IMG/VR virus record: IMGVR_UViG_3300027980_000100
Location: 1-22,313 of that record
Strand: one strand, 5' to 3'
Source of the DNA: a virus
Length of the DNA: 22,313 bases
Below the pieces are notes generated by a model. It searched no databases and was not told the origin of the DNA. It was given only the letters and a program-made list of their open reading frames with translations. The translations under genes and the position numbers were made by a program. Positions 4,809 to 22,313 of the stretch are shown here, piece by piece; the stretch's first letter is position 1, and every line of letters starts with the position of its first letter.

Positions 4809-5547
4809 TTTTGTTTATTTATCATTTCGCCAAATCTATTTTCAAAGTTAACACTTTCTTTGTTGCCAATCAATATTTTGGTTGCATACACATCGTTTAG
4901 CTCAAAAACCTCGTCATCATTCCGGTTCAATAGTTTGCAAAGCGTTTGAATTTCATAAAAGTTAATATGTGGACTAAGTTTTTTAATCCCTGCTTGCTCT
5001 CGTTGAGCCTCATATTTATCAATTGTCTTGACATCTTCAAATAATTCATTGCGCCTTTTCTGCCAATTAAAAAACGATTGGCCAAAAAAAAAGCGGTTGG
5101 AAGTATTTTTTTGTATGGCTCCTTCAATAATTTATCCTTTAATTCGTTGATATTATCAATATTCATCGGATCATCGACAATGCCAGTTGCTAAAATAAAA
5201 CAAAGTAATTCCTCTTCTTTTAACTTCCTGGCGTTTTCCTCAATCATGAATCTTTGTCCTACTGTTGATAAATCAATATCTTTAAAAATAATCAGTTCTT
5301 CACCTATTATCATGGTTTTTGGTGGTGATATTTTAGTGTAATCCTCCAATACTCCCAACCTTTTTAATAGTTTTTTTGTGCCTTTTACCTTTAAATTAAA
5401 AGCCGCTTTGTAATCGATCCCCAGTGTAACGGATAAATAAGTAACAATATTCACATCTTTTTTAGATAATTCAATGAATTGACTAACTGTTAGCTCATCC
5501 ATTGAAGGCACTTCTTTTTTCTCTTTGTTAATGGTTAATGTTATCAT
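4805..5547 (-). CDS. Tail-assembly-chaperone-like gene, -1 frameshift product (GT-like, 247 residues)
   Basis: Residues 1-154 come from the ATG at 5547. At the T9 tract (5092-5084) a -1 shift enters a frame that stays open for about 290 nt and stops at 4807-4805. The added 93 residues start FGQSFFNWQKRRNELFEDVK, continue with DKYEAQREQAGIKKL and FELNDVYATKILIGNK, and end in EMINKQK. They look like natural soluble protein, and their stop overlaps the next start as ATGA, whereas the unshifted frame leaves a 118-nt gap. A short form plus a frameshifted long form is the hallmark of lambda G/GT-type tail chaperones, which load the tape measure protein, and the tape measure gene lies two genes upstream. 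The alternative is a lost T in a homopolymer, real or from sequencing. Chaperone identity rests on context and frameshift, not on a recognised domain. Confidence 0.65.
4843..4874 (-). promoter_or_regulatory. Possible internal Bacteroidota-type promoter
   Basis: Read on the minus strand, ATTG (4874-4871), 20 nt, then TAACTTTG (4850-4843). The -7 element is a full match to TAnnTTTG and identical to the one before the portal gene; the -33 element matches TTTG at three of four positions. It would start a transcript about 30 nt before the ATG at 4808. It lies inside the shifted coding frame, so it could be a chance match. Confidence 0.3.
4927..5547 (-). CDS. Tail-assembly-chaperone-like gene, unshifted product (G-like, 206 residues)
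   Basis: Without a shift, translation from the ATG at 5547 gives 206 residues. The first ~154 (MITLTINKEKKEV..., ELTVSQFIELSKKD, LGIDYKAAFNLK, then an acidic helical part and PYKKILPTAFF) are common to both products. The last ~50 (LANRFLIGRKG, MNYLKMSRQ, ending KRFANY) are read from DNA whose -1 frame looks better as protein, so they may be an incidental tail. The ATG overlaps the stop of the HTH-like gene (ATGA). In G/GT systems the short product is the abundant one and the shifted product a minority. If the T9 tract is instead a sequence error, this short form does not exist and the gene is one 247-248-residue ORF. Confidence 0.65.
   Translation of the reverse strand: MITLTINKEKKEVPSMDELTVSQFIELSKKDVNIVTYLSVTLGIDYKAAFNLKVKGTKKLLKRLGVLEDYTKISPPKTMIIGEELIIFKDIDLSTVGQRFMIEENARKLKEEELLCFILATGIVDDPMNIDNINELKDKLLKEPYKKILPTAFFLANRFLIGRKGAMNYLKMSRQLINMRLNESKQGLKNLVHILTFMKFKRFANY
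5062..5092 (-). promoter_or_regulatory. Slippery T9 tract with adjacent hairpin, candidate -1 frameshift signal
   Basis: On the coding strand, codons GCT TTT TTT TTG (from 5094) contain a T-TTT-TTT heptamer in the right phase for -1 slippage; the nine T's are 5092-5084. One base later, GCCAAT (5082-5077) and ATTGGC (5067-5062) form a perfect 6-bp stem with a 9-nt loop. A slippery heptamer plus a downstream hairpin is the standard layout of programmed -1 sites, although the spacer here (1 nt) is shorter than the usual 5-9 nt. U-rich slippery sites can also work without a structure. Confidence 0.6.
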
Positions 5548-9713: not shown

Positions 9714-10141
9714 TTTGCAAGAGCTAATTCATATTGAATAATATTGAATGTCAAATTATATCGTCCGTTTGTTTGTCTCCATCTGTTAGGATTTCCAACT
9801 ATCCCGACACGTTCAGTTGTACCATCTTTGAAAACCCTTATAATTTTTTTAGCCACAAGAATAGAACTTAAAACTTTCAAATCATTAAGTGTTAAATCTT
9901 CGGCAACTAATTTAATAGGTCTTTCTTCTGATGAAATAATATTTTGAAGTTTTGACTCTGTTTGTAAATTAACAGGTGATGCACTTACATCCTGCGATTC
10001 TTCCCAATCAGTAAACAAATAATTCATATAGCTGCCTGTTCTGGAATACCAACCAAGCATAAATTCAAACTCTTCATAATTCGAATCTGACTCGCTTGTT
10101 GGTGTCTCAACCTTGATTATTTTTGTGTTTATTGTCGCCAT
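9710..10141 (-). CDS. Probable minor tail protein, 143 residues
   Basis: The 143-residue protein is mostly beta and polar, with EFMLGWYSRTGSYMNYLFTDWEE in the first half and a segment around VFKDGTTERVGIVGNPNRW near the end. There is no signal peptide or membrane helix. The ATG at 10141 lies 13 nt inside the end of the HExxH gene; its stop overlaps the start of the 593-residue protein (ATGA). The pairing with the large tail protein suggests a partner in the tail tip, but I recognise no family. Confidence 0.55.
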   Translation of the reverse strand: MATINTKIIKVETPTSESDSNYEEFEFMLGWYSRTGSYMNYLFTDWEESQDVSASPVNLQTESKLQNIISSEERPIKLVAEDLTLNDLKVLSSILVAKKIIRVFKDGTTERVGIVGNPNRWRQTNGRYNLTFNIIQYELALAK

Positions 10142-10413
10142 TGTGCAAAGTGTTTCCTATTCTTTAAATAGTTTGGATCGCTTTGGTGTTTATATGCTTC
10201 TTTTTCGAATGATATACCTCGATAACCTTTAAAAATCCATTCAATGAAGTATATCAGATAGAAGAAAACAATCAACAATTCCTTTTGTTGCTCTCCATGA
10301 ATCGACTCGTGCCTTCTCATTATAAGATTATCTTTCTTATAAAAAACAAATGGCCAATGTGTAATTGCATTAAAACCCTTTGCAGGATAGCGTTTTGTCT
10401 TAATGAATTTCAT
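10129..10413 (-). CDS. Small HExxH protein with hydrophobic helix, putative zincin-like
   Basis: From the ATG at 10413 the product is 94 residues. This ATG makes a TAATG junction with the previous stop and follows AGGAG by two bases; the longer frame would need TTG at 10428. The sequence contains RRHESIHGEQQKELL, a zinc-peptidase-like HExxH, followed by a hydrophobic helix (IVFFYLIYFIEWIF) and then ISFEKEAYKH, where the Glu could be a third ligand. I recall similar small 'HE-x-IH-x-x-QQ-x-EL...FYL-x-Y...SFE-x-EAY' proteins of unknown function in Bacteroidota. The length is far below that of a usual peptidase. It sits inside the tail operon, so a role in processing a virion protein or in envelope entry is possible but unproven. 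Confidence 0.65.
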   Translation of the reverse strand: MKFIKTKRYPAKGFNAITHWPFVFYKKDNLIMRRHESIHGEQQKELLIVFFYLIYFIEWIFKGYRGISFEKEAYKHQSDPNYLKNRKHFAQWRQ

Positions 10414-11165
10414 TACTCCTCGTGCCAAATAGTTATAAACCCTCTATTATATGATGTTTTATCAAATATTGTTGTGTCAAATTGGCCGCCTGTAACTCTA
10501 CTCATAAATACATTAGCTCCTTTTAATATCCAAGCTCCATCCATTGCTAGTGCGCTACCTGGAACCGCTGACGATTCAACAACATTAAGACTAAAAGCTT
10601 CAGGCCAAATCGCTGCATCATCATCCGCATATATCTGCACATCTACAACTTTTATTTTAGTCCAATCACTTATTCCGTGTGCAATACTCACTGAAATTGT
10701 AGTATCCATATTCCAATCACCAATTTGAATTACTTTTTGTTTAAGCTCAATATTGTTATCAACATTAACAGACTCTATATAAATAGAATTATCCTTATTG
10801 GTAATGCGATAAATAACATCTGTTACAGTGTTATCAATATAATCTTGCCTTTGTGACACATCAGTTGCCCCGGTAAAGTCTACAGTGTGACCCGCTGATT
10901 TAGTTAATTTCAAATATTTAATTTCACCTTGCGCAATATTACTCAATGTGTAGGTGCTATTTGCGCTTTGTGTTACTGTTATATAATCAATATCAGTAAA
11001 ATCTAATGTTTTGGTTCCTGCGGCTGTATCTGCAAAAGTTACATCTTTGCGAAATGTCAAGCTCTGACAAAAGTTATCATTAAGCACCTCCTTTAGTTCT
11101 TCAAGGTCAACAATTGCGGCTAATGCCTCAATAAATACTGCTACCTCATCTCTATTGTTTGCCAT
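10413..11165 (-). CDS. Probable tail-fibre/receptor-binding type protein, 250 residues
   Basis: The 250-residue protein has an N-terminal helical part (FIEALAAIVDLEELKEVL), a beta-rich middle with many Thr/Ser/Asn (FADTAAGTKTLDFTDIDY; KSAGHTVDFTG) and a C-terminal region (QIGDWNMDTT, YADDDAAIWP, TGGQFD, SYNRGFITIWHEE). An 'IGDW-x-MD' start and an 'NRG-x-I' end recall C-terminal domains of phage fibre proteins that I have seen in Bacteroidota phages; this is memory, not a search. No signal peptide. Gap of 2 nt to the previous gene; its stop joins the HExxH gene as TAATG. Confidence 0.55.
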   Translation of the reverse strand: MANNRDEVAVFIEALAAIVDLEELKEVLNDNFCQSLTFRKDVTFADTAAGTKTLDFTDIDYITVTQSANSTYTLSNIAQGEIKYLKLTKSAGHTVDFTGATDVSQRQDYIDNTVTDVIYRITNKDNSIYIESVNVDNNIELKQKVIQIGDWNMDTTISVSIAHGISDWTKIKVVDVQIYADDDAAIWPEAFSLNVVESSAVPGSALAMDGAWILKGANVFMSRVTGGQFDTTIFDKTSYNRGFITIWHEE

Positions 11166-11167
11166 AT

Positions 11168-12109
11168 CTAAGTTATTTTAAAATCACTACTAAAATCGTC
11201 AGGGCTAAAATCTGGTAATGTTGAATACTCAGCCACAAACTCAATATATTCTGTATCTGAATCATAAACAAAATCTTTATCCAGATTAATAAAAAACAAT
11301 CCTTGTTCTGAAGCGTTCAAAGTTGTTATTGCATTGTCAGCTACTAAAAGACTTTGGTTAATGTCAAGCTCATCAAATGATATTGCTAAACCGGACCCAT
11401 CATTGTTTAATTTAGAATGAGTCAAGATAATACCATATGGATAACCCTTCCATAGTTTTGGTTCGTCAAGTTCATTAATTAAGCTTTCATATTCTGCCTG
11501 CTCAGTTCCATAGTATAATATTATTTCCTGATCAATTAGTGTGAATGTTGTTGAGCTATCCTCATATACTTCTCTATACTGAACTTTGAAAACAACCCTT
11601 GATTCTTCAAGTAGTTGGGTGATATATTCAAAGAAAATTATGTTTAAATCATTTGCAATAGATGTATCAATTGTTACATTTCCGGCATTGTCCCCGTCGT
11701 CAATTAGTGAGAAGGGTAAAATCTTTATTGATGAGTTATCCGGGTCGATTAATTCACATTCTAAGTGCCAATTTTTTAGATAATTTATGTATCCAGTATT
11801 AGAGCTTTCAACAAAATTAATTTCCGCATCAATTGTGTTTGCTGTAATTGCGGTTATGGTTCCAGTTTCATCATATTGATAACCTGTTGTTCCAATAGCA
11901 TTAAGATAAACCTGATCGCCAATAGATAGAATACTTGTTAAATCACTGCCAATTGTAATACGAACGAATGAACCAACGCCCAACCCAACAGAAGTAATTG
12001 ATAAATCCTCCCTTTTAAATTTGTACTCTACAGGAAGAAAGCCAGCAAATAAGTTCTTCACAATGCCGCCTTCAGTTATAACCGGGCTTTCTGTTACTGC
12101 TACGCTCAT
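11168..12109 (-). CDS. Phage structural protein, 313 residues
   Basis: The 313-residue protein begins MSVAVTESPVITEGG, followed by LFAGFLPVEYKFKREDL. It is beta-rich, with a possible Ig/SH3-like part around SIGDQVYLNAIGTTGYQYD that reads like a beta-barrel insertion, and it ends in an acidic stretch (DFSPDDFSSDFKIT). Proteins with an 'FAG-x-x-P-x-EYKF-x-RED' start are common hypothetical structural proteins in Bacteroidota phages, as far as I recall. It is ATGA-coupled to the gp10-like neck gene, so a neck or tail role is reasonable. Function unresolved. Confidence 0.55.
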   Translation of the reverse strand: MSVAVTESPVITEGGIVKNLFAGFLPVEYKFKREDLSITSVGLGVGSFVRITIGSDLTSILSIGDQVYLNAIGTTGYQYDETGTITAITANTIDAEINFVESSNTGYINYLKNWHLECELIDPDNSSIKILPFSLIDDGDNAGNVTIDTSIANDLNIIFFEYITQLLEESRVVFKVQYREVYEDSSTTFTLIDQEIILYYGTEQAEYESLINELDEPKLWKGYPYGIILTHSKLNNDGSGLAISFDELDINQSLLVADNAITTLNASEQGLFFINLDKDFVYDSDTEYIEFVAEYSTLPDFSPDDFSSDFKIT

Positions 12110-12543
12110 ATCTTATTAATACCTTTCATTTTTACTAATAAATCTTGTTTGGCCCACCTTGGAGCCTCGCGGTTTAATTCGTCAAGTAATGCTTTTCTCT
12201 TCTTATCAAGTTCAATACCCTTAGAACTATTTTTAAAAATCTCTGTTCCTTCTCTAGCAATCTTACGACCAATTAAATAAGGTGAAATCTCAACAGGTTT
12301 GTTAACTGCCCACTCTGTTATAACATCTACAGGGGGAAATCTCCCAGGGGCACGACCTTTATCAAGATAATACATGTAGAAAATACCGTATGAAGTGACA
12401 GAATTTTTGCGCTCATTAACCTCAATACGCATTGAATTTGCAGCCTCTTGAGTGTTATCAATGCCTTTTGAGCTTAAATCATCCCTTATCGATTGATTGA
12501 ATTGCTCTACTAGTTTTTCGGTATTGTATAGTAATTCACTCAT
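12106..12543 (-). CDS. HK97 gp10-like neck / head-tail joining protein
   Basis: The 145-residue protein has the pattern of gp10-type neck proteins: an N-terminal helix, a strand region around NSVTSYGIFYMYYLDKGRAP, then GRFPPVDVITEWAVNK, and a C-terminal helical part with IGRKIAREGTEIF. The 'YLDKGR-x-PG-x-x-PP-x-x-x-I-x-x-W' segment is the most telling. In tailed phages this protein helps close the head and join it to the tail. It is flanked by TAATG (upstream) and ATGA (downstream) junctions. Length fits the family. Confidence 0.75.
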   Translation of the reverse strand: MSELLYNTEKLVEQFNQSIRDDLSSKGIDNTQEAANSMRIEVNERKNSVTSYGIFYMYYLDKGRAPGRFPPVDVITEWAVNKPVEISPYLIGRKIAREGTEIFKNSSKGIELDKKRKALLDELNREAPRWAKQDLLVKMKGINKI

Positions 12544-13589
12544 TATGGATCTACAATGTGACCTTCAGCAACAACTAAAAATGAAATTATACTCGATAAA
12601 TCATCTTGTACTAAAAATTCTAAATCCTCTCCCGGAGCAAGTCTTATAACTACCCCAATTTTAGATTGACCACCAAATGTTAAACGTGATGTAAAACCGT
12701 CTTGTCCTTGTTGTGGGTTAGTGGCAGATGCAACATCCCAATCATACATCAACCCGGCTAAGTCTTGATTTGTTTTCGCGTTAAATATATTATAGTACGT
12801 GCCGTCACGTTTTCGTAATACTAACCCGTTAGTTATACCCCCGGCTATATCTGCAAATGTTGATAAATCAACCGCCGAAGTGGTTGTACATGTAAATATT
12901 ATTCTCGTTACGTCAATAGTAATTCCAATAGGTGAAGGAGAAACCCCCCTTAATCCAAATGTTTGTGTTGCTTGACTGCCGTCAACGGCCAAATTTTTAT
13001 CTGTTAAATCAACAAATGAAGCCGAATCATAGGCAACATCTAAAGGAGTGTCAAGAAATAAAGTATCTATGTTTTTAGATAACGTATTAAATGTTGAAAA
13101 CCTATTCAATGTTGGGTTAAATATCACTACGTAGGTGTTATTAGCAGATCCTAAAGTGTCCAATACTGTTATAAATGTGTCGCCAACGGCTCGATCAGCT
13201 GCTAAAGTTGTTGATTCTGCTATACGATTAAAATTAACTATTACCGCTTGTGTTGTCTGGTCTTGCACTGAAACATCAGAAACAACCCTATTTAATATTG
13301 TTGTTAAATAATCAATGGCCTCATCTTGAGTGTTGAATGTTGATGAATCTGTTTTAAATATCTCTGAATAGGTTCCTATATTGTATTCCTGCTTTGTAAT
13401 TCCATCTTTTAAAATGAAGTTATCCCGCACCAACCTATAATTAACCATGCCAGGAGTCATAAATAACGGCGTAGTCTCTAAATTATCTATGCGAATCATC
13501 CCGTTTTCTTGATAAACATAATTAGAATCCTGTGTGTAACTATTTAGAATTAGTCCAAATAAAAACAATAATGTGAATAACTTTTTCAT
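12543..13589 (-). CDS. Virion-type protein carrying a Sec signal peptide, 348 residues
   Basis: The first ~20 residues (MKKLFTLLFLFGLILNSYT) are a clear export signal. The rest looks like phage structure: an N-terminal part (IRIDNLETTPLFMTPGMVNY; TQDEAIDYLTTILNR), a beta-rich middle, and a C-terminal region with GGITNGLVLRKRDGTYYNIF, AKTNQDLAG, RLTFGGQSKIGVVIRLAPG and VQDDLSSIISF. The 'LTNG...KTN...TF-G-Q-x-x-x-GV-x-IRL...QDDLS' order resembles a widespread structural protein of marine phages, as I remember it. It lies between the connector and neck genes. A signal peptide on such a protein is odd: either the signal is a membrane anchor or the protein goes to the envelope. Cleavage near residue 19-20 is a guess. 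Confidence 0.7.
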   Translation of the reverse strand: MKKLFTLLFLFGLILNSYTQDSNYVYQENGMIRIDNLETTPLFMTPGMVNYRLVRDNFILKDGITKQEYNIGTYSEIFKTDSSTFNTQDEAIDYLTTILNRVVSDVSVQDQTTQAVIVNFNRIAESTTLAADRAVGDTFITVLDTLGSANNTYVVIFNPTLNRFSTFNTLSKNIDTLFLDTPLDVAYDSASFVDLTDKNLAVDGSQATQTFGLRGVSPSPIGITIDVTRIIFTCTTTSAVDLSTFADIAGGITNGLVLRKRDGTYYNIFNAKTNQDLAGLMYDWDVASATNPQQGQDGFTSRLTFGGQSKIGVVIRLAPGEDLEFLVQDDLSSIISFLVVAEGHIVDP

Positions 13590-13593
13590 GATT

Positions 13594-14136
13594 TCAAATT
13601 GTTAGTGTATTAAATGATGTTTTTGGTTTGTTTTCTGCTCTTCCTTCCCATTCTGGATAAGTTGAATCGTTTTCATTAAGAAATTCGACAATATTGTTAC
13701 GGTAAGAAGTAATATTCTTGAAGTATGCTGAGTTAATACGGTCTATTGTTTTCTGATTGATTTTAGTCATGTTATCTTGTGGGTTATCCTGAAATTGTAT
13801 ATTTCCGTAGTCAGCTTGGAAGTAATCACCCTCACGAACATTAAGAGCAAGCCAATGGTAAGCAAGAAAAGGCCGTAAACCGTAGTAAATTATTGTATCA
13901 TTGTCGAGCTCATATTCTTTACCGTCTACTAAATCAACATATTTTTGTGCTGTTGGTTGGCCTGTTGTCTCACTTAAATCATTATATAAAGCAGTATAAA
14001 GAGGATCACGTAACAACTCCCTTAATTGAGTTTGTTGCACTTCAAATGCAAAAGCGTTGAAACGCTCTTGATTAAAGTTATTAGAAATATTCCTATATTC
14101 CTGGACGTTACTCTGCGTCAATATCACCTTCGCCAT
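13594..14136 (-). CDS. Head-tail connector / head completion protein
   Basis: The 180-residue, mainly helical protein begins MAKVILTQSNVQEYRNISNN and has a stretch QTQLRELLRDPLYTALYNDL, then a YGLRPFLAYHWLAL helix and a C-terminal helix rich in Tyr/Asn. Small helical proteins of this kind directly after the portal are head-tail connectors, and it resembles the Bacteroidota connector group (DUF6712-like) that I remember. It is coupled to the portal gene by a TAATG junction. The next gene starts after a 4-nt gap. Confidence 0.6.
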   Translation of the reverse strand: MAKVILTQSNVQEYRNISNNFNQERFNAFAFEVQQTQLRELLRDPLYTALYNDLSETTGQPTAQKYVDLVDGKEYELDNDTIIYYGLRPFLAYHWLALNVREGDYFQADYGNIQFQDNPQDNMTKINQKTIDRINSAYFKNITSYRNNIVEFLNENDSTYPEWEGRAENKPKTSFNTLTI

Positions 14137-15581
14137 TATTCCTCTATTGTTTTATCGGTTTGTTTTAAATCAATTGGTTCCCCTAATATTTTACGTGCTT
14201 TATCCTCCTCAAAACCGTAAATCTCGACTAATATCTCAAGCCCTGCATCATATTGCGTAGTCCCTTCGCTTACAGATCGTTGTATTTCTAATATACCTTG
14301 AACACCTCCAACAGTACCTTTTAAATTTGCCTGTGCTTTTGCTCTTTCTGCGCTAACTTCGTCACCTCCTTCACCTTCAACCATCAACGCTTCTGCTGTT
14401 GCTGATTGGAAATTTAAAGGCTCTATTTCTAAGTTATCTAAGCCCCAAATAGTAAAAGGCATAAATAAATTGAATATTCTTTCAAGCTCCTGTCTATCTT
14501 TTTCAGTGATTGAATTATAGTAGTGAAAAGCATCTTGAAAACTCTCTTGATTAAACATTCCATTAGTAGCAATTCCGTTTAATATTGGTGGTTGTTGGAA
14601 TCTTGCGTAAATATTGGATCTACTCTCACTATTTTGCTTTTCAAATAGTTTGTCAACTCCTATGCGTGGTATCTCTTCAAATATTTTACGGCTACCCATT
14701 GCCTCAAGAAAGGCGGCGTTTAATGGTAATACTTTTGTTCTTCCTGCATTGTTAGCCCCTCTACTCTTTTGAACATCTTTTATTTTATCCTCTTGCTCTT
14801 TTCCGCTTGTCAATGCCATTGGCGTTATCTCAACATAATTAGCAGAAAAACCGTTTTGTATATTTCTGAGTTTGTAAACTCCTGATTCATGCTCAAACTG
14901 AACATCATCAAGTACGCTATCAAATGTTGCGAGTGGGTATATTTCTTTTCTTTCTGGAATCCAATATAAAACTTGTCCTGGATAATTCTCAATGCCTCCA
15001 CTCTCTGCAATTTCTTCCTGTACTGTTTCTGGATTGAATTTATAGAACTCAATCTTATCATTCTTACTAAATCGGCCTGATTTGCTCCAATCTGGTGTGA
15101 ATACTAATCTTGAAAAGTCTTTTTTCCAGCGTAATGTTTTGAAGGGAATTTCTTGAATCTCTATTATTTCGCCTAAAACATTATAATTAAAATGTAGTGG
15201 AACTCCGAATTTTGATTTTTCAATTGAAGTGTGATCGAGTATATCAAATAATGTTTCCCCGTCATCATTAACAATGATTTTATTTATATCCTGACCGCCC
15301 TGTTCTTTGAATCCTTGGCCTGCTAAAAATCTGCCTAATGTTCTTATAGCTGTTTTGCAACTCTGTGAACGTTGAGCCATTGATTCAACCTTATCCGGAT
15401 AGAGATTATCCTTTCCGTATAAGAGAATATTACCAGAGCCACGCGATAAATAAAGAGGGTTAGGAAGTCTCTCAACGTAAACAGCTTGTTCGACAGTGTT
15501 AACAGTTGCAAATAAATCACCTTGTACAACACCATCATCATTATGGAATGAACCTGAAGCATTCGACCTTGCATCGCTCAT
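14136..15581 (-). CDS. Phage portal protein
   Basis: From the ATG at 15581 the product is 481 residues (MSDARSNASGSF...). It has the features of portal proteins: N-terminal SGNILLYGKDNLYP, a helical crown and wing with repeated YxF elements, QQPPILNGIATNGMFNQESF in the clip/stem half, and a Lys/Glu-rich C-terminus with a glycine hinge (GEGGDEVSAERAKAQ). The twelvefold portal ring is the DNA gate and the seat of terminase and connector. A TTG at 15599 would add six residues but lies inside the -7 promoter element, so the ATG is preferred. The gene follows the capsid unit instead of preceding it as in HK97. Confidence 0.85.
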   Translation of the reverse strand: MSDARSNASGSFHNDDGVVQGDLFATVNTVEQAVYVERLPNPLYLSRGSGNILLYGKDNLYPDKVESMAQRSQSCKTAIRTLGRFLAGQGFKEQGGQDINKIIVNDDGETLFDILDHTSIEKSKFGVPLHFNYNVLGEIIEIQEIPFKTLRWKKDFSRLVFTPDWSKSGRFSKNDKIEFYKFNPETVQEEIAESGGIENYPGQVLYWIPERKEIYPLATFDSVLDDVQFEHESGVYKLRNIQNGFSANYVEITPMALTSGKEQEDKIKDVQKSRGANNAGRTKVLPLNAAFLEAMGSRKIFEEIPRIGVDKLFEKQNSESRSNIYARFQQPPILNGIATNGMFNQESFQDAFHYYNSITEKDRQELERIFNLFMPFTIWGLDNLEIEPLNFQSATAEALMVEGEGGDEVSAERAKAQANLKGTVGGVQGILEIQRSVSEGTTQYDAGLEILVEIYGFEEDKARKILGEPIDLKQTDKTIEE

Positions 15582-15596
15582 ATCTTGAATTTTTAC

Positions 15597-15628
15597 CAAA
15601 GTTAATTTTTAATTAGATTAAATACAAA
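15597..15628 (-). promoter_or_regulatory. Bacteroidota-type promoter before portal
   Basis: On the minus strand TTTG (15628-15625), exactly 20 nt, TAACTTTG (15604-15597): a full match to the TTTG / TAnnTTTG promoter described for Bacteroides. The transcript would begin about 10-15 nt before the ATG at 15581, giving a very short leader. It lies just after the terminator of the preceding unit, as a promoter for the portal-to-lysis transcription unit would. Confidence 0.75.
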
Positions 15629-15658
15629 TAAAAAAGAGGTTACTAAAAAGCAACCTCT
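15629..15658 (-). terminator. Rho-independent terminator after head operon
   Basis: In the minus-strand transcript AGAGGTT (15658-15652) and AACCTCT (15641-15635) form a perfect 7-bp stem with a 10-nt loop, followed by a U tract (T6, complement of 15635-15630). It lies 22 nt after the stop at 15680. Confidence 0.85.
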
Positions 15659-15679
15659 CTCAATAATTAACCTATATAT

Positions 15680-16093
15680 CTAAAACCAACTGCCTGCAAT
15701 CTTTGCGTCAACAAATTCCTTATGAATTGTTTCGGGGACTCCATAACCTTTCACGATTTTTCGAGTGCCTAAACCAAGTCCCATGAATACGTTAGCTGTT
15801 TTCTTTGGCTTCTTACCTTTGTACTCTTTGAATTTCTTCTCAAGCTTCTGGTAATTTTCATAAGCCGCTTTTTTGATTTTCTTCGGATCAAAACCGTTCT
15901 CATCACACATTAAAAGGTGTAATTCAGCAAACTTGGTGTAATCCTGGGCATCTTGAGCAAGCTCTTTTATTTTGGCTTCCTCTACAAGTTTAGCGGCTTC
16001 AGCAGCGGCCTTGTCGGCTTTCTCTTTGGCCAGCTTATCAGCTTCAGCAGCGGCCTTGTCGGCTTTAATTTTAGCCTCTTGTTCTGGTGTCAT
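15680..16093 (-). CDS. Ala/Lys-rich coiled-coil protein with internal repeat, 137 residues
   Basis: The first ~45 residues are an Ala/Lys/Glu-rich helix built from a 15-residue repeat (ADKAAAEADKLAKEK then ADKAAAEAAKLVEEA). The second half is different: FAELHLLMCDENGFDPKKI, a Lys-rich helix, then a small Gly-rich part (VFMGLGLGTRKIVKGYG). The repeat is visible in the DNA as two identical 26-bp copies 45 bp apart. Its start abuts the stop of the 53-residue gene (TAAATG). It ends the head unit before a terminator. A scaffold, decoration or DNA-packing role is conceivable. No family recognised. Confidence 0.65.
   Translation of the reverse strand: MTPEQEAKIKADKAAAEADKLAKEKADKAAAEAAKLVEEAKIKELAQDAQDYTKFAELHLLMCDENGFDPKKIKKAAYENYQKLEKKFKEYKGKKPKKTANVFMGLGLGTRKIVKGYGVPETIHKEFVDAKIAGSWF
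15996..16066. repeat. Two perfect 26-bp direct repeats, 45-bp period
   Basis: The sequence GCTTCAGCAGCGGCCTTGTC plus GGCTTT occurs at 15996-16021 and again at 16041-16066. It is coding and encodes the repeated Ala/Lys-rich helix of the 137-residue protein; the 45-bp spacing equals 15 codons. Confidence 0.9.
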
Positions 16094-16255
16094 TTACTTT
16101 TCGGTTTTAGTTTGTTTAACTTCTTTGATTATTCCAGCTTTTAGCCAGATTTTCAGGATTCTATCAGGAAAGGAATTGAGGTTATCATCAGACAACCTCT
16201 TCCCTTTATATCCTGTATTTCCTTTTTGCTTTGCTAATTTATAACTATTTATCAT
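16094..16255 (-). CDS. Small basic protein, 53 residues
   Basis: A frame from the ATG at 16255 to TAA at 16096-16094 fills a gap of over 150 nt between two structural genes. The product starts MINSYKLAKQKGNTGYKGKR, has a central RLSDDNLNSFPDRILKIWL part and ends in a Lys-rich tail. It is basic, with one amphipathic helix and no signal or membrane segment. Its stop directly touches the next ATG (TAAATG), and the previous gene ends 10 nt upstream, so it behaves like an operon member. Basic charge in a head operon could suit DNA or scaffold contact, but no family is known to me. Confidence 0.65.
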   Translation of the reverse strand: MINSYKLAKQKGNTGYKGKRLSDDNLNSFPDRILKIWLKAGIIKEVKQTKTEK

Positions 16256-16265
16256 AATTCACAAA

Positions 16266-16850
16266 TTAAACAACCGGAGTTAATAAAGCTTCTAAATCTA
16301 CAGTACTCGCAATTACTTGCGCTTCGAATACTTCAGGTGGATCAACATCGGGAGTTTTAGCAATAAATTGCAATGTACCTCCTAGTCCAGCATCACCTTG
16401 GTTATCTTGCCAATCTGATAAACGCATACCAACACCAACGGGTGACGGTGTTGCATCAACTTTACCACCGTATATAATAGCGCGACCCTCAAGCAAAGGG
16501 ATGATAATAACAACCTTGTTAAATCTCATTCTCACAAGATTTTGCCTAACAAGTGCGTCAATATTGTTTACCCTTGCATCAACCTGATCGTCAAATCCAT
16601 CAACACCATCAATAACCCGCAAAACAGAAGTGCCGATTATATTCGAAGATTTAGGGCATTGGATTTTATAAGCTGCCGCCCCTGTCTCAGTTAATGTGAT
16701 AGCGGTGATCTCTTCAGTGACCCCGGTATCTTTAGTAACTGTCGCTGTTTTCCACTCAGAGTAATTCAGAATATAAAAATAATTCTGAATACCTCCTTGT
16801 TGGAGGGCATCACAATCAAATGTAACGCCCGCATCTAATTTGCAGCTCAT
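16266..16850 (-). CDS. Phage structural protein, tail-tube or decoration type, 194 residues
   Basis: The 194-residue protein begins MSCKLDAGVTFDCDALQQGG with IQNYFYILNY next. Bacteroidota phages often have a protein starting 'C...GV...DC...GGI-x-x-x-Y-x-x-N', which I associate loosely with major tail or virion surface subunits. The rest is beta-rich: GVTEEITAITLTETGAAAYK, then a segment NKVVIIIPLLEGRAIIYGG and an acidic stretch with QDNQGDAGLGGTLQF, ending in ASTVDLEALLTPVV. The position two genes after the capsid and the strong ribosome site before it suggest an abundant protein. Exact role uncertain. Confidence 0.6.
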   Translation of the reverse strand: MSCKLDAGVTFDCDALQQGGIQNYFYILNYSEWKTATVTKDTGVTEEITAITLTETGAAAYKIQCPKSSNIIGTSVLRVIDGVDGFDDQVDARVNNIDALVRQNLVRMRFNKVVIIIPLLEGRAIIYGGKVDATPSPVGVGMRLSDWQDNQGDAGLGGTLQFIAKTPDVDPPEVFEAQVIASTVDLEALLTPVV

Positions 16851-16852
16851 AT

Positions 16853-17260
16853 TTAATCCTCCTTAACTATTAAAATCGCGTTAGTTACTGCGACCGTATC
16901 ACCTGATGCGCAAGCCAAAAACCCCCTATAATATAAGTCTAATGGATTTGTGACATACAAACGTGAAACACCATCTGTTGAAGTTGCTGCTAAATTTGCC
17001 GAAGCATCAGCCAAATCATAAAAATTTACATTATTATTTGACCCTTGGATCTTCGCAACACTTAATGAATCTGCTACATCTACTTTAACAAATGTGAAAG
17101 TAACAACTGTGGTTGAATACTTTTCAACTGCTCTATTACCAGCATAAGTTGAAGTGTCTGCTTGAACCGTGTCGTTAGCAAATGGATAGCTTTGTTTCTG
17201 TGCGCTTGCTGTTATACCTAGTACAACAAAAAGCAAGCTAATTAAAAATAATTTTTTCAT
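16853..17260 (-). CDS. Signal-peptide protein after the capsid gene, 135 residues
   Basis: Residues 1-20 (MKKLFLISLLFVVLGITASA) are a textbook signal peptide, with a likely cut after ASA and before Gln21. The remaining ~115 residues are beta-rich: TYAGNRAVEKYSTTVVTFTF, DSLSVAKIQGSNNNVNFYDL and a segment SRLYVTNPLDLYYRGFLAC. The 'DSL-x-x-x-x-IQGS-x-x-x-x-NFYDL' pattern looks like a phage virion domain, not a host enzyme. It lies between capsid and structural genes in a tight operon. Capsid genes rarely neighbour exported proteins, so it may be a virion-associated protein with an unexpected signal, or an exported exclusion protein. Confidence 0.7.
   Translation of the reverse strand: MKKLFLISLLFVVLGITASAQKQSYPFANDTVQADTSTYAGNRAVEKYSTTVVTFTFVKVDVADSLSVAKIQGSNNNVNFYDLADASANLAATSTDGVSRLYVTNPLDLYYRGFLACASGDTVAVTNAILIVKED
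16858..16864 (-). promoter_or_regulatory. Strong Shine-Dalgarno before the 194-residue structural gene
   Basis: The coding strand reads AAGGAGG, seven bases before the ATG at 16850. It is the strongest ribosome site I noticed in the window; Bacteroidota genes usually lack one, so high translation is likely. It overlaps the last codons of the upstream gene. Confidence 0.75.
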
Positions 17261-17271
17261 ATCACTATCTA

Positions 17272-18210
17272 TTAAGCTGGTTCATAAAGAACGATTTCTG
17301 AAGACTCTCTATAATTTGCATCGGCTTTAAGGTCAATACGCACAAATCTCAAGCGTCCTGCATTTTCTTTATAGTCAATGCGTGGATTCTCATTTGTATA
17401 CTCAACATAAAAACCAAAGAATAGATTAGATGTTGCAGCATCGGCCACGCCTTTTGCACCTACTATATAATTTTTTGGTAATCCAGAATAGTGTACAATC
17501 CTTTTGTTTAAGAATAGCATGCTAATCTCTTCATCAAGAACACCGACCGTTGTTTTCTTCGCATCATTATTGAAGCGTTGTAACAATTTAAAATCTGTTG
17601 TGTTCATGTGAATCTGATAGTTGCTATCATCAATAAACTTATCAGGTATTGCGCTCCAAACTTCAGCAACACGATCCGCAACATTGGCCTGGGTAATTGC
17701 TCCGGCTGGTGTTACTTTAATTGTGTTAGCATCAGCACTCGCACGTGTGATAATACCGTTAAATTTATTAAGTGGGTCGTTAGCTAACAGAGTAGTGTCA
17801 CCTTGCCAGAATAATTTCGAAAGTTGCGTACCTCCATTGTTCATGTAAAGTTCGATTACATCAGCTAAGAACTCAGGATTGTGCATTAAATTGGTAAAGT
17901 CACCAACTGGCTGCCACTTTTCCCAAACATCTTGAAAGTCCTCTGGTAAAAACTCTTCATAGAGAGTCATTTTCTGAGGTTCAATGCTTCTTTCCGCGTA
18001 AGTAGTTGTTACACTTTCAGTGGCTGGAACCCCGGAGGTATAGTCACCTATTGGATCTTCAGTTTGACTAAGGCGGGGTAAGGCTCTCTTTTGAGCAATT
18101 CCGACCTGTACGTTAGTTACTCCTTTTTCGATTACTTGGTTTCCTACTGTGAAAACCTGATATAAAAAGGATAAAAAATCACCTGCGTATGAGCTATTTC
18201 CTACATTCAT
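17272..18210 (-). CDS. Major capsid protein, HK97-like fold
   Basis: The 312-residue protein begins MNVGNSSYAGDFLSFLYQVF. Its N-terminal helix-turn part is followed by a YAERSIEPQKMTLYEEFLPE segment as in E-loop regions, a spine-helix stretch NPEFLADVIELYMNNGGTQL, a P-domain with ITRASADANTIKV and a late NLFFGFYVEYTNENPRIDY segment, ending SSEIVLYEPA. Position directly after a ClpP-like prohead protease and its extension, together with length and composition, identify the capsid subunit. Start ATG at 18210 lies 12 nt after the protease stop. Whether the N-terminus is trimmed by the protease is not visible. Confidence 0.85.
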   Translation of the reverse strand: MNVGNSSYAGDFLSFLYQVFTVGNQVIEKGVTNVQVGIAQKRALPRLSQTEDPIGDYTSGVPATESVTTTYAERSIEPQKMTLYEEFLPEDFQDVWEKWQPVGDFTNLMHNPEFLADVIELYMNNGGTQLSKLFWQGDTTLLANDPLNKFNGIITRASADANTIKVTPAGAITQANVADRVAEVWSAIPDKFIDDSNYQIHMNTTDFKLLQRFNNDAKKTTVGVLDEEISMLFLNKRIVHYSGLPKNYIVGAKGVADAATSNLFFGFYVEYTNENPRIDYKENAGRLRFVRIDLKADANYRESSEIVLYEPA

Positions 18211-18221
18211 GATTTACAATT

Positions 18222-19403
18222 TTAAGCGTTAGCTAGTTCTTCTTTCTTCTTCTGAATGTCGGCCGCAAGCTTACGCATATTTGCCTGTGCACTTGCTTGA
18301 GTTCCAACTTCCAACTCAATAGATTGAGAGTTTTTAATTTTTGGAACCTTCTTTGTGGATCCTGCACTTCTCAATTCTGCAATACTATCAGCAATAAGTT
18401 TTGCTGTTTTAGCCTCAGAATCAACAAGCAGTTGAGCAACTATCTCAGTAACTTGCTCCGCTGTTATACCTTCGTTAGTTGCTGCAGCTTGCACCTCAAC
18501 AATTTCCGAAACAACGTTTTCAGCATTAACCTTAATGGTGCGTCCATCTTCAAGAGGATAGTCACCCTCTGCGGTTGTAGCTCCTGACAATTGCACTTCA
18601 GAGTCAACTTTCAACTCACCTTCATGCAAAAGTACTTTACCGTCTTTATCAATCGTTGAATTGATAACGGTATCTTCTTTTTTACCGAATCTTAAATTCA
18701 TATTTAAACTATTTAATTTATTTTGTGGTACTTTATACCCGAATTTTTCAAGCCTACTCAAATCATAATGAGCGGCGGCCCTCATTGGCTCTGTAATATG
18801 TTTAATAAGTCCTACCTCAAGGGCCTCGGAGGCTGTTAACCATTCACCATCACCATTGTTTTCATTCATTAAGGCTGTCATTTCTTCCTTAGTATTGCCT
18901 GTTTGGTCTGAATAAACACCTGCCATTGTTCCGTTAATCTTATCTAACCATGAAGCATAACGACTCATATCAGAAGAAACACCACATGCACAACCTCTTG
19001 CCTGGTGTATTAGAATCATGTTCGTGTTGGACATTGTAATATTGTTGTCTGTGGCTGCGGCTGCAATGATTGTTGCAATGGAAGCTGACCACCCTGTATA
19101 TTCAACCTCAATATTTGCCGGATTCTTTGCAAGTGCTGAATACATCGATTGACCGTGATTAACATCACCGCCCAGGGAATCAATATTTACTTTTATGGTA
19201 TCTGCTTTAAGGTTGGATATTTCCTTTAACTCTGCTTGCATCTTTTCTTTAGTAGATACATATTCTTTTTCCATATCTGCATCAAACTGCCACCATTCAG
19301 GGCAACCAATAAAACCAGATATATTAATCTCTGCGGTTTTATTAGCTTTCATTTGGATTGTTGACCAGGTGGTAAGTTGTTTTGGTCTATTGAATAAGTT
19401 CAT
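18222..19403 (-). CDS. Prohead protease, ClpP/S14-like, with long C-terminal extension
   Basis: The 393-residue protein has a ClpP-type core in residues 20-210: IDSLGGDVNHG (74-84), GWSASIATIIAAAA with putative catalytic Ser108, MILIHQARG with His133, and a candidate Asp near 154 (WLDKI). The stretch WLTASEALEVGLI (188-200) matches the 'WLTA-x-EA-x-x-xGLI' end of phage S14 proteases. Residues ~240-393 are extra: an acidic/hydrophobic beta part, then EQVTEIVAQLLVDSEAKTAK and a Lys-rich helix to the end (MRKLAADIQKKKEELANA). Such tails often act as an internal scaffold. It is the first gene after a terminator and a candidate promoter. The exact triad needs a structural model. Confidence 0.85.
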   Translation of the reverse strand: MNLFNRPKQLTTWSTIQMKANKTAEINISGFIGCPEWWQFDADMEKEYVSTKEKMQAELKEISNLKADTIKVNIDSLGGDVNHGQSMYSALAKNPANIEVEYTGWSASIATIIAAAATDNNITMSNTNMILIHQARGCACGVSSDMSRYASWLDKINGTMAGVYSDQTGNTKEEMTALMNENNGDGEWLTASEALEVGLIKHITEPMRAAAHYDLSRLEKFGYKVPQNKLNSLNMNLRFGKKEDTVINSTIDKDGKVLLHEGELKVDSEVQLSGATTAEGDYPLEDGRTIKVNAENVVSEIVEVQAAATNEGITAEQVTEIVAQLLVDSEAKTAKLIADSIAELRSAGSTKKVPKIKNSQSIELEVGTQASAQANMRKLAADIQKKKEELANA

Positions 19404-19416
19404 ATTGCTGTATTTA

Positions 19417-19430
19417 GTAACAATTGTTAC
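19417..19430. promoter_or_regulatory. 14-bp palindrome in protease leader, operator candidate
   Basis: GTAACAATTGTTAC is a perfect inverted repeat without spacer, 14 nt before the protease ATG and about 25 nt below the candidate promoter. It could bind a dimeric repressor or form a short leader structure. No binding partner is visible. Confidence 0.35.
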
Positions 19431-19453
19431 ACAATATTAATTCTTATTTAGAA

Positions 19454-19485
19454 CAAATAAAAATTATAAAGCAATAGTGTCCAAA
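19454..19485 (-). promoter_or_regulatory. Candidate Bacteroidota-type promoter before protease
   Basis: On the minus strand TTTG (19485-19482), 20 nt, TTTATTTG (19461-19454): full -33 match and seven of eight positions of TAnnTTTG if N is free, with T in place of A at the second base. The spacing equals that of the portal promoter. It lies between a terminator and the protease gene, giving a leader of about 45 nt. Confidence 0.5.
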
Positions 19486-19494
19486 TTAGGGCAT

Positions 19495-19522
19495 AAAAAA
19501 ACCCCCAGTCCAGAACCGGGGG
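19495..19522 (-). terminator. Rho-independent terminator after packaging genes
   Basis: In the minus-strand transcript CCCCC (19522-19518) pairs with GGGGG (19506-19502) around an 11-nt loop, with two more inner pairs after one mismatch, followed by a U tract of seven (complement of 19501-19495). It lies 67 nt after the stop at 19590. The rest of the 19404-19589 gap holds the promoter and palindrome listed separately and no gene. Confidence 0.85.
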
Positions 19523-19589
19523 CAAACCTTTAATCGAACAAAATCTTACATCGAATACAAAGATATGAAATTATTTAATGTTTGTCAAA

Positions 19590-19904
19590 TTACTTTAACA
19601 TTCTATTTCCTGAAGGAGTGCTAAAATGAGCCATTCTAAGAAGATCGTTTATGTTAACCTTCTTAACTCCTTTCAACTTATTGTAAACTTTGCGCCAGTT
19701 GTTATCAATAATTATTACGTTCTCACCCATTGGCATGATGTGGTATTGTAATCCTGTGATTTCGTGGGCTCCTAACGCTAATTTTTTAACTCTCTTGATT
19801 TGTCTTTTGGTTTTGTATTTGAGAGGTCTTTTGGTTTGATAATTATGGTCGTTCCTTCGCTTCCAGTTTTTAAACCAGGTCTTTAATTGTTTAAGTTTTT
19901 TCAT
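19590..19904 (-). CDS. Basic protein of unknown function, 104 residues
   Basis: The 104-residue protein has a strongly basic N-terminal third (MKKLKQLKTWFKNWKRR; RPLKYKTKRQIKRVKKL) and a C-terminal part with a short beta-like segment (HIMPMGENVIIIDNNWRKVY) and a helix (NINDLLRMAHF). There is no signal peptide or membrane segment. It starts 3 nt after the terminase stop and ends the packaging operon. Basic charge beside terminase would suit DNA or RNA binding, but I know no family; small basic proteins at this site can be accessory packaging factors. Function not assigned. Confidence 0.65.
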   Translation of the reverse strand: MKKLKQLKTWFKNWKRRNDHNYQTKRPLKYKTKRQIKRVKKLALGAHEITGLQYHIMPMGENVIIIDNNWRKVYNKLKGVKKVNINDLLRMAHFSTPSGNRMLK

Positions 19905-19907
19905 AGG

Positions 19908-21197
19908 TTAAGTATTATATTGATATCCATAATTCACATGGTAGTATCTTGTAGCGTAAAATCGGGCATCCTGTAAGTGATTGTTTTTATCTTCTGGTTT
20001 GTTTAGTGGTTCCTTAGTTGTGGCATCCATAGCCCATTTAAAGTTTTGTAGTTCAAAGATAAGATTTTCAGAGTCCTCATGCACAAAAGTTTCATATTCT
20101 TTTGCCATGTCTATAACATCCTTCCGGAAGTCATCATTGATTTTTGTCTTGTCTGCTTTGATTACATTTATACCTGCATCTGATAACTCAAATCGCTTAT
20201 CTTTTCGAGCTGAATCACACACAACCTCATGATTTTCCGGATTAACTTCTTTGATTAGGCTTATTAATTCACTGTTTAATATCTCAGGTTGATAGAGTAT
20301 TTCACGCATGTACACTCGTTTTTTCTTCTTATCGAAATTGAGTTTAATAATAGCGTGCGGATCATTGCCTCCCCAATCAAGCCCATAAACAGTATAAAAG
20401 TATGTGTCCTGTGGTAATTCTTTGTAGAGTTTCCACTTCTTAAATATCTGCCCTTTGGCTCCTGATGAAACAAGACCTTTGATATCAGTTAAATAATGGT
20501 CGAGTGTCCGCTCATGGTTTTTGTAATCCTCCCACATTTCGCGGGTGACTTCATTAATGTTATCATAGTTGTCCAGGTAAGTTGAGAATATACTTAAATG
20601 CCTTGGTAATCCTTTAGGAATAAAATTGAAATACTCTTCATGTTCCGGGTGAGGCTCAAGATTGTAATATGTTTTTATTATCCAGTGGTCTTTCTGTGGA
20701 GGGTTCCAAATGCGTAATATTTGAGGCTGCGCTTTGGTGGTCCTAAGTGAATCTTTAAGCTTTCTATAGTCGTATTCTTCTACCTCTTCAAATTCCTCAA
20801 TGATTATATTTGTAGCACCGGCAATCGATTTCATTTTAGCGGTACGACTGTTTGAACTCTTCCTGAACCCTTTTGATTCAATCTTATTGCCATTGGGTAA
20901 GTATTCAATCGACATATTATTGTCATTGAAATGAAACTTATCCATTAGCTTGATGCCGAATTCCTCTTCTTTCTCTTCGATTCTATCTTTGAAGTCTTGA
21001 TATAATGAGGTCCTGATATCTGAGTGGACCAATCGCATGAAATAACCCCGGAAATACTTAGATGATATAATCTTTAAAAGGAAGTAATCAGTTGCAAAAT
21101 GACTACCCCCTCTTCCACGTCCACCGCAAATGTCTATCTCATAGGCTGTTGCATCACTAAAAACAGGGTTATATATTTCATTGAAATGGAACTGCAT
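19908..21197 (-). CDS. terL: Terminase large subunit
   Basis: The 429-residue protein has both terminase halves. ATPase: GGRGRGGS at residues 25-32 in the Walker A place, and TNIIIEEFEE (129-138) as Walker B with catalytic Glu. Between them lie ESKGFRKSSNSRTAK and SIAGATN. Nuclease: YGLDWGG (Asp274), VVCDSARKDK (Asp328) and NHLQDARFYATRYY (Asp410), three acidic residues in RNaseH-fold order. It packages DNA into the prohead using ATP and cuts the concatemer. Length is in the usual range. The Walker A lacks the standard Gly-Lys-Ser/Thr: the position holds Gly-Gly-Ser with an Arg two residues earlier. No small terminase is seen in the window; it may lie upstream. Confidence 0.9.
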   Translation of the reverse strand: MQFHFNEIYNPVFSDATAYEIDICGGRGRGGSHFATDYFLLKIISSKYFRGYFMRLVHSDIRTSLYQDFKDRIEEKEEEFGIKLMDKFHFNDNNMSIEYLPNGNKIESKGFRKSSNSRTAKMKSIAGATNIIIEEFEEVEEYDYRKLKDSLRTTKAQPQILRIWNPPQKDHWIIKTYYNLEPHPEHEEYFNFIPKGLPRHLSIFSTYLDNYDNINEVTREMWEDYKNHERTLDHYLTDIKGLVSSGAKGQIFKKWKLYKELPQDTYFYTVYGLDWGGNDPHAIIKLNFDKKKKRVYMREILYQPEILNSELISLIKEVNPENHEVVCDSARKDKRFELSDAGINVIKADKTKINDDFRKDVIDMAKEYETFVHEDSENLIFELQNFKWAMDATTKEPLNKPEDKNNHLQDARFYATRYYHVNYGYQYNT

Positions 21198-21208
21198 TAA
21201 CTAGCTTT

Positions 21209-21460
21209 TCATGTTGTTTGATAATATTTTGGTTCAATTATTTCGATGTCTTCAGACTTTAATATATTTCTAAACCCGATATTAATTTTCAATGGTTGGT
21301 CTTCGTCTTCTTGCTCTAATTTAAGGCTATTTTTATTTATCTTCTTAACTACACCCACAAACATGTGTTTATTAGTGTTCTTGCGCCTGTAATATACCCT
21401 CACTTTTTTATTGAGCATGGGCTTTACTTTTAATCTGATTAGTTCGATGTGTTCGCTCAT
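21209..21460 (-). CDS. Small basic protein, possible Sm/SH3-like barrel, 83 residues
   Basis: From the ATG at 21460 the product is 83 residues (MSEHIELIRLKVKPML...). This start is preferred over the ATG at 21478 because it overlaps the previous stop as ATGA and follows GGAGG by nine bases. The middle alternates hydrophobic and basic residues (KKVRVYYRRKN, HMFVGVVKKINKNSLKLEQ, LKINIGFRNILKSEDIEII), like a small beta barrel of the Sm/SH3 kind: a basic strand, a 'G-x-V' turn, then 'I-x-x-x-DI'. An RNA- or DNA-binding role is therefore possible, but this is inferred from pattern only. It lies between the methyltransferase-like and terminase genes. Confidence 0.65.
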   Translation of the reverse strand: MSEHIELIRLKVKPMLNKKVRVYYRRKNTNKHMFVGVVKKINKNSLKLEQEDEDQPLKINIGFRNILKSEDIEIIEPKYYQTT

Positions 21461-22110
21461 TTTGCTGTTCCTCCCCATTGCCCTGCCATAGCTTTTGCTA
21501 TTCCTGGATATGTTTTTGACCTTATCTTTTGCCTGTTAGGCCCCGGAGGACAATAATGCACCTTTGCTCTTTCTGCATATGATAACTTCATCATTTCGTT
21601 ATATACATTGTTTGTTTCTTTTAGCTTAGGTAATCCATAAAGCCACAAGCAAGTTGCCTTCTTTTCTAAATGGCCGAACTGGTAGGGCTGAATTATTTGT
21701 GTTGGCTTAGAGTTTTCAGAAGCTAAGAATATTTCGTTTTTAGCGTGCTTGTGCATTATAGGGTTTTCTATAGCTATCTTGTTACCTAGTTTACCGTAAA
21801 ATTTGAATATCTTAAAGAATTCTGCACCTTCTATCATTTTGTCAATTCTATCCTTCTTAAAGCCATTTTCTTTTTTACAATCAATATATAAATGCTTTGA
21901 ACCTGAATTAGCTAAAAAAGTACATGTCGGAAAGGCTATAACTAAATCCCATTTACAACTGTATAATATATTTCTAACATCACCTTTTATATGCCATTCA
22001 GGATGCCCGCCGGAACAATCTTGTAAATCACAACTATAGGCTTCATGACCTAATTTTCTAAGCTCAATTGTCACAGCTTGGCTTTCTTCACATGCTACTA
22101 ATACTTTCAT
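21457..22110 (-). CDS. Cytosine-methyltransferase-like protein (SAM-binding fold), 217 residues
   Basis: The 217-residue protein starts MKVLVACEESQAVTIELRKL, a Rossmann-type opening with a CEES loop, then GHEAYSCDLQD as in motif II, HIKGDV, and LVIAFPTCTFLANSG (57-70) at the place of the catalytic Pro-Cys motif, followed by KIAIENPIMH (111-120) like the ENV motif, then QPYQFGH and KKATCLWLYGLP. The end GIAKAMAGQW is typical of a widespread phage family annotated as DNA cytosine methyltransferase-like. The usual PPC is PTC here, with Cys63 retained. It could methylate phage DNA or be a diverged relative with another role; no target-recognition domain is present. The ATG at 22110 overlaps the previous stop as ATGA. 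Confidence 0.75.
   Translation of the reverse strand: MKVLVACEESQAVTIELRKLGHEAYSCDLQDCSGGHPEWHIKGDVRNILYSCKWDLVIAFPTCTFLANSGSKHLYIDCKKENGFKKDRIDKMIEGAEFFKIFKFYGKLGNKIAIENPIMHKHAKNEIFLASENSKPTQIIQPYQFGHLEKKATCLWLYGLPKLKETNNVYNEMMKLSYAERAKVHYCPPGPNRQKIRSKTYPGIAKAMAGQWGGTAK
21470..21474 (-). promoter_or_regulatory. Shine-Dalgarno that decides the start of the 83-residue gene
   Basis: GGAGG on the coding strand, nine bases before the ATG at 21460 and inside the last codons of the upstream gene. It supports the shorter start over the ATG at 21478, which would lie upstream of it. Confidence 0.6.
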
Positions 22111-22268
22111 TCCTTAATTTCTTTTATTACCTCCTTAGTCTCAAATTGCCTGTTTAAAATAACTGGCTCTTCTTTAGGTTCAAGTACTTTGACTAAAAGA
22201 ATTACTACAAGTATTGCAATAAGACTAAATAGGATGTATGATATTGTTTTTGTTTTATTTAAAGGCAT
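22107..22268 (-). CDS. Small single-TM protein, 53 residues
   Basis: ATG at 22268 to TGA at 22109-22107. The product starts MPLNKTKTIS, followed by a hydrophobic segment (about residues 10-28, YILFSLIAILVVILLVKVL), then an acidic/basic helical tail (EPKEEPVILNRQF, KEVIKEIKE). The stop overlaps the methyltransferase-like start as ATGA, so it belongs to this operon. One membrane anchor plus a soluble helix is all that can be said. The role is unknown. It fills a gap that would otherwise be empty. Confidence 0.6.
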   Translation of the reverse strand: MPLNKTKTISYILFSLIAILVVILLVKVLEPKEEPVILNRQFETKEVIKEIKE

Positions 22269-22313
22269 CGAAAAAGTGTTTTAGATATCCTTCAACATGT
22301 AGATACATAAATA
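22255..22313 (-). CDS. Possible C-terminal end of an upstream gene (partial)
   Basis: A frame open from the right edge ends in TAA at 22257-22255 and reads (F)MYLHVEGYLKHFFDAFK before the stop. It overlaps the start of the 53-residue TM gene by 14 nt, which is acceptable for phage operons. Another frame also stops nearby (22281). Too little is visible to decide which is real, or whether it is the tail of a larger protein. Confidence 0.3.
   Translation of the reverse strand, partial: FMYLHVEGYLKHFFDAFK

Follow-up and report, generated by a model that had tools for sequence, protein, structure and literature searches.

The viral record IMGVR_UViG_3300027980_000100 from IMG/VR comprises 22,313 bases (the window, i.e. 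the whole stretch analysed) and may be a genome fragment. Its genes lie on the minus strand, as do the features described here, which concern the block of head genes and the transcription signals at its borders. The gene order on that strand is methyltransferase, terminase, ORF 19590, protease, major capsid protein, ORF 16853, ORF 16266, a 53-aa ORF, ORF 15680 and portal. The first head gene encodes a ClpP-like head maturation protease (18222..19403; phrog_133, E 5e-39, and other matches), and is followed by the major capsid protein gene (17272..18210; phrog_1623, virion structural protein, and matches annotated as major capsid protein), by ORF 16853 (16853..17260) and ORF 16266 (16266..16850), both kept in relatives, by the 53-aa ORF (16094..16255; YKGKRLSDDNLNSFPD...) and by the last ORF of the block (15680..16093). 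The portal protein gene (14136..15581; phrog_11226, E 2e-47) is the first one after the head block; further genes lie downstream, among them one with a weak tape-measure match. As capsid and portal match phages of Bacteroides, Nonlabens, Cellulophaga and Flavobacterium, among others, the host is likely a member of the Bacteroidota. No DNA-level relatives were found among named phages.

Five gaps of at least 90 nt are present between the genes of our own gene list (the two record ends excluded). One of them (16094-16265) contains the 53-aa ORF, another (4809-4926) codes in a shifted frame and a third (1384-1483) contains a short reading frame. The only true junctions are 19404-19589, before the protease, and 15582-15679, before the portal. 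These are the two to which a sequence-only reading of this DNA had ascribed one common design, namely a strong terminator followed by a promoter of identical 20-nt spacing. The terminators of this design were borne out. In a strict scan of both strands of the window, T1 and T2 were the sole intrinsic terminators. T1 (19501..19523, T run to about 19495) stands ahead of the head block and has a hairpin of 9 bp, six of them GC (19522-19502); T2 (15632..15661), between head block and portal, has a hairpin of 12 bp, four of them GC (15660-15633), and a T tract. With a mean of 0.07 strict terminators per strand and a maximum of one in 200 dinucleotide shuffles, both combine a stable G+C-containing hairpin and a T run beyond chance expectation. 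The T2 hairpin folds with z -5.9 and the stretch 19494-19555 around T1 with z -2.4. A laxer scan of 10000-22313 included T1 and T2, yet gave no overall excess (six found, 7.4 expected). Matches to Rfam families in the neighbourhood of T2 and T1 (L20 leader, E 0.008; FopS, E 0.88; anti-hemB, E 0.084) were taken as chance: all score far below the gathering level and fall on a terminator hairpin and its AT-rich flanks.

Relatives of the locus were gathered by profile searches and one genome scan as loci with protease, capsid, ORF 16266 and portal genes in the same order; L096 is the only prophage-like one from species genomes. Terminators were counted within 150 nt before a gene, with near-duplicates removed and the window included; the loci compared are mutually related, and their ORF calls are simple. 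A terminator precedes the protease in 9 of 17 loci and the portal in 8 of 22, as compared with 44 of 1440 random stretches, and none was found at this distance before the capsid gene (0 of 24) or before ORF 16266 (0 of 23). Two further portal-side terminators, in L120 and L129, were missed by the scan and are visible in folds. As had been proposed, real terminators stand at both ends of the block from the protease to ORF 15680, and the terminators of relatives are specific to these two boundaries.

The primary sigma factor of Bacteroidota uses promoters with TTTG at -33 and TAnnTTTG at -7 (PMC7366714, PMC6847099). In mapped promoters of Flavobacterium johnsoniae, T-12, A-11, T-8, T-7, T-6 and G-5 are near-invariant, and transcripts start 4-5 nt past the -7 box (PMC6847099). 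On both strands of the window there are exactly two perfect TTTG-N19-21-TAnnTTTG sites, 19589-19558 and 15628-15597, where 0.23-0.37 are expected per strand (one-strand shuffles had a mean of 0.37, and at least two sites in 4% of cases). The portal-side site, the predicted promoter P3 (15597..15628; TTTG-N20-TAACTTTG; local shuffle p 0.0002), had rightly been described as a perfect consensus match. Its -7 box stands 15 nt before the portal ATG and recurs in L124 and L125, and the predicted start at about 15592 would leave a leader of 10-11 nt. The other site, the predicted promoter P1 (19558..19589; TTTG-N20-TATCTTTG; local shuffle p 0.0016), had been overlooked. It begins directly behind the stop codon of ORF 19590-19904 and ends 35 nt before T1, upstream rather than downstream of the terminator; an RNA from the P1 start, placed 4-5 nt past the -7 box (PMC6847099), to the T1 end is predicted to be about 59 nt long (19495..19553), and alternatively P1 may give rise to a head transcript that T1 attenuates. 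Both P1 and P3 exceed chance and match every base of the Bacteroidota consensus with N20 spacing.

The promoter that had been placed behind T1, P2 (19454..19485; TTTG-N20-TTTATTTG), fared differently. It has 9 of 10 consensus bases, and the changed base is the near-invariant A-11, which is T. As 12.6% of local shuffles carry a site as good as this (local p 0.13), P2 is not beyond chance; the window has 13 sites with at least 9 of 10 bases per strand (including the two perfect ones on the minus strand), where 7.7 +/- 3.5 are expected. The identical spacing at both ends therefore has only one real pair behind it, and the two ends do not share one design: each junction has one perfect promoter, and the head side consists of a perfect promoter, a terminator and a degenerate promoter, in this order. 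A plain sigma-70 scan was uninformative (50 found, 47.2 expected).

Behind T1 stands the candidate head promoter TAATTTGGACACTATTG (19472..19488), homologous to TATTTTTGGACACTATTG after the L122 terminator and to the perfect promoter of L120. After the protease-side terminator, L122 has TATTTTTGGACACTATTG and the window CTAATTTGGACACTATTG; L120, which has no scanned protease-side terminator, has TTTG-N20-TAATTTTGGTTACTATTA at the corresponding place. The 14-mer TTTGGACACTATTG occurs in 4 of 134 loci (one is L122, and the other three are copies of the window locus or its near-identical relative), and comes after the protease-side terminator in both the window and L122. Judged from L122, the TTTG that had been assigned to position -33 of P2 is likely the homologue of a -7 box. 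A variant motif TAnnTTGY has been described in F. psychrophilum (PMC9723704); the window element (19488-19472) resembles its TAnnTTG core but has no final pyrimidine. We regard this element as a plausible, though tentative, weak or factor-dependent promoter. TAnnTTTG boxes stand before the protease in L016, L120, L122 and L124 (4 of 18 loci, duplicates included), and L096, read separately and outside this count, has a perfect N19 promoter there. Furthermore, inverted repeats are present shortly before the protease ATG in the window (19417-19430; GTAACAATTGTTAC) and in L003 (6427-6441) and the equivalent place of L095 (ATGTT(T/A)AAAAACAT), and in L122 (2185-2222) a long hairpin reaches to this ATG; such repeats could be operators or translation controls.

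For comparison, 10 Bacteroidota phage records or parts of records (L013, L014, L097-L104) were surveyed, which contain 43 intergenic terminators and 10 strict or 40 relaxed intergenic promoters. A terminator followed by a promoter within 60 nt was found once with strict and five times with relaxed promoters, three times in crAss001 (16913, 27040, 41937) and twice in B40-8. What they have in common with the window is an intergenic gap at a structural gene boundary in which a terminator precedes a TTG-N18-22-TAnnTTTG promoter by 4-60 nt (5 of the 40 relaxed promoters); these phages differ from the window in belonging to other families, with no sequence relation, and have no perfect promoter upstream of their terminators. 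The opposite order, a promoter followed by a terminator within 120 nt, was seen with none of the 10 strict promoters and with one relaxed promoter, at 14201 of Polaribacter phage P12002L. Among 50 non-redundant loci (window included; 621 kb), a simple ORF call places 13 of 43 perfect promoter sites between genes, and of these only the two in the window have a terminator nearby. Since it also occurs in crAss001 and B40-8, the terminator-promoter junction is an ordinary though not frequent device; the promoter-terminator leader is rare. The intergenic stretch of P12002L (L103, 14201-14390) lies after a tail gene and has a promoter, a terminator and a promoter-like element, the terminator being trailed by another TATATTTG (by eye).

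The model put forward with the common design, three fully separate units, each with a complete terminator and its own promoter of equal N20 spacing, would agree with T1, T2 and P3 being real, with the junctions in crAss001 and B40-8, and with the portal side of L124 and its near-duplicate L125. In these two loci the terminator is followed by TAACTTTG, 16 nt before the portal ATG, in the layout of the window, and the box has no TTTG at N19-21 distance. However, the head-side promoter of this model (19485-19454) is chance-level and without A-11, the perfect promoter P1 stands upstream of T1 instead, and a promoter is missing after the portal-side terminator in most of the relatives that have one, so that we consider the model improbable. 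Indeed, a TAnnTTTG box within 150 nt before the portal ATG was found in 3 of 24 loci (duplicates included), namely the window, L124 and L125, and none follows the portal-side terminators of L003, L095, L096, L122, L127 and L128, which end 14-23 nt before the ATG. The comparison shows a predicted terminator, not a predicted promoter, as the recurring feature, which points to read-through as the probable dose control.

That the head genes are immediately preceded by a strong terminator, with a perfect promoter 35 nt ahead of it, can also be read in another way. In phage lambda, the late promoter pR' stands shortly upstream of the terminator tR', ahead of the virion genes. By analogy, P1 would always be on, and T1 would block transcription until a phage factor let the polymerase ignore T1 and thereby switched on the head genes. 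The likeness lies in this promoter-terminator order before virion genes (for the lambda late promoter and early terminator, see PMC7171158), and the function in the window is only predicted. In line with such control, the leader that extends from the P1 start as far as the protease ATG has more structure than its shuffled versions (z -4.2; -2.8 for the part past T1), and P12002L has a similar promoter-terminator leader. The promoter is of another class than in lambda, though, and neither a Q-like protein nor a Q-binding site was found. Nor was any antiterminator found in this record, which is possibly a fragment; ORF 19590-19904 gained no support as a candidate for this role, having no regulator match and relatives that are placed elsewhere. 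The relative in L106 sits inside a gene run without such a leader. P1 is shared only by L002, which is identical over the junction, and the layout occurs with none of the 10 strict intergenic promoters of the named phages. We therefore judge a lambda-like switch to be quite unlikely. ORF 19590-19904 belongs to a family of small basic proteins of unknown function (phrog_22658) with relatives in L003, L096, L106 and L107; in L096 this relative adjoins the protease in the opposite direction.

P1 and T1 might also delimit a small regulatory RNA (about 59 nt) that stands by itself and is unconnected to head-gene transcription; high-confidence small RNAs of Bacteroides were indeed chosen by an intergenic promoter and an intrinsic terminator (PMC7366714). 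Yet Rfam gave nothing at the gathering level in the window, with only far-below-threshold matches over 15500-19700, the RNA has no exact complementarity of at least 11 nt to the window's minus-strand transcripts, and it has no relative in viral_contigs except L002. This reading appears very unlikely to us.

The explanation that we favour, and hold to be fairly probable, is that the head genes form a bounded transcription unit in which T2 is partial, P3 tops up the dose for the portal, and the head genes are fed after or through T1. T1 and T2, placed directly before protease and portal, would delimit the unit. T2 would probably terminate only in part, reducing the transcripts that come through the genes of the abundant capsid before they reach the low-copy portal and the downstream genes, and P3 would add a controlled dose for the portal block. 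Protease and capsid would be transcribed from the weak or factor-dependent promoter after T1 (TAATTTG-GACACTATTG), from P1 through T1, or from both, and RNAs of about 59 nt would arise where P1 transcripts halt at T1.

A precedent is known from phage T7, in which genes 11 and 12 are reached only via read-through of the terminator after the capsid gene 10 (PMC5592923). Like T-phi of T7, T2 lies between the capsid block and low-copy virion genes, a placement repeated in relatives (8 of 22 before the portal, 0 of 24 before the capsid gene), although T7 has its own polymerase, T2 is trailed by its own consensus promoter and its read-through is a prediction. Partial termination has been reported in a flavobacterium (PMC9723704); mapped transcript starts of a related phage were not found in the parts of the literature searched. 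Since most portal-side terminators of relatives have no sigma-A-type promoter after them, we consider it no less likely that a partial terminator is read through than that the units are fully separate; the terminators 14-23 nt before the ATG also favour read-through, as they leave little room for a promoter. Several observations weigh against this explanation. With a full consensus promoter such as P3 behind it, T2 does not have to be partial in this phage. Six relatives have no TAnnTTTG after the terminator, but in the window a consensus promoter occupies this place. No scanned or eye-read portal-side terminator is present in 13 of the 22 non-redundant loci with a found portal start, and in 11 of these 13 the gap before the portal does not exceed 13 nt. 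The relatives share kinship, so that the counts are not independent events, and the window's own element behind T1 misses the TAnnTTTG consensus by one base.

A different kind of element was found within the head block. In 13 non-redundant relatives, the small ORF between ORF 16266 and the ORF before the portal contains a stem-loop of about 14 bp (L015-L020, L111, L113, L115-L117, L119, L121 and L123, the duplicate L020 included; e.g., L018:5682-5716) with strong covariation, also where compensating changes alter the amino acids, and the encoded protein is mostly KGKxVxFDxLPL-like. In the window this site is occupied by the 53-aa ORF, which has a hairpin (16167..16213; z -3.7), a possible diverged copy of the relatives' stem-loop; the covariance model of the latter gave no match to it at E up to 10. 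A small-ORF hairpin is present in 13 of 14 folded loci, the window being among the 13. The exception, L122, has a window-like small ORF without hairpin (z +1.0) and counts against universality.

Covariation was analysed in 12 relatives, aligned without gaps and anchored on the protein (excluding the window, L122 and the duplicate L020), and the resulting statistics are inflated by relatedness, as all 12 come from one part of the family. In this alignment 86.9% of the cells pair (shuffles, 74.8 +/- 2.0), 21 are changed on both sides (shuffles, 8.6 +/- 1.9), and the covariation score is 0.426 versus 0.192 +/- 0.029, which none of 500 shuffles reached and which sliding of the 3' arm lowers to 0.148 or less. 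A weaker measure is the count of doubly changed pairs, six, which 24 of 500 shuffles reached. The second bases of codons 4 and 9 pair as GC, CG or TA and are never broken; as these codons change together at all three positions, the second included, a pure protein-motif cause of the hairpin was rejected. It is no intrinsic terminator either, because no T run follows it on the coding strand. The covariance model built from the 12 relatives picks up L116, which is outside the training set, with 56.9 bits and 13 of 14 pairs kept, and no convincing Rfam family was found for the stem-loop.

All 11 stem-loop carriers with a found portal start are without a terminator before the portal, whereas among the 10 relatives without stem-loop a portal-side terminator is present in seven by scan, and in nine if two read by eye are included. 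The window has both, the portal-side terminator and a hairpin in the corresponding small ORF. It is conceivable, if doubtful, that the head-to-portal boundary is under RNA-level control by two interchangeable devices, and that the ratio of capsid to portal is set, through processing, pausing or translational control, by an undescribed RNA element embedded in coding sequence.

Apart from the two junctions, a further promoter at 4874-4843 was ruled out, as it lies in coding sequence, in the frame in which ORF 4927-5547 goes on. Past an in-frame A AAA AAC heptamer at about 4978-4984, this ORF seems to be extended by about 60 codons in the -1 frame, as would be expected for a programmed -1 frameshift of a tail assembly chaperone; alternatively, there may be a sequencing error at this place.

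The layout of terminators around the head genes probably sets the amount of each virion part, and the comparison gives exact positions where transcript starts and stops should fall. The stem-loop was less expected than the terminators, and suggests selection on RNA structure that overrides protein sequence inside a phage head operon.

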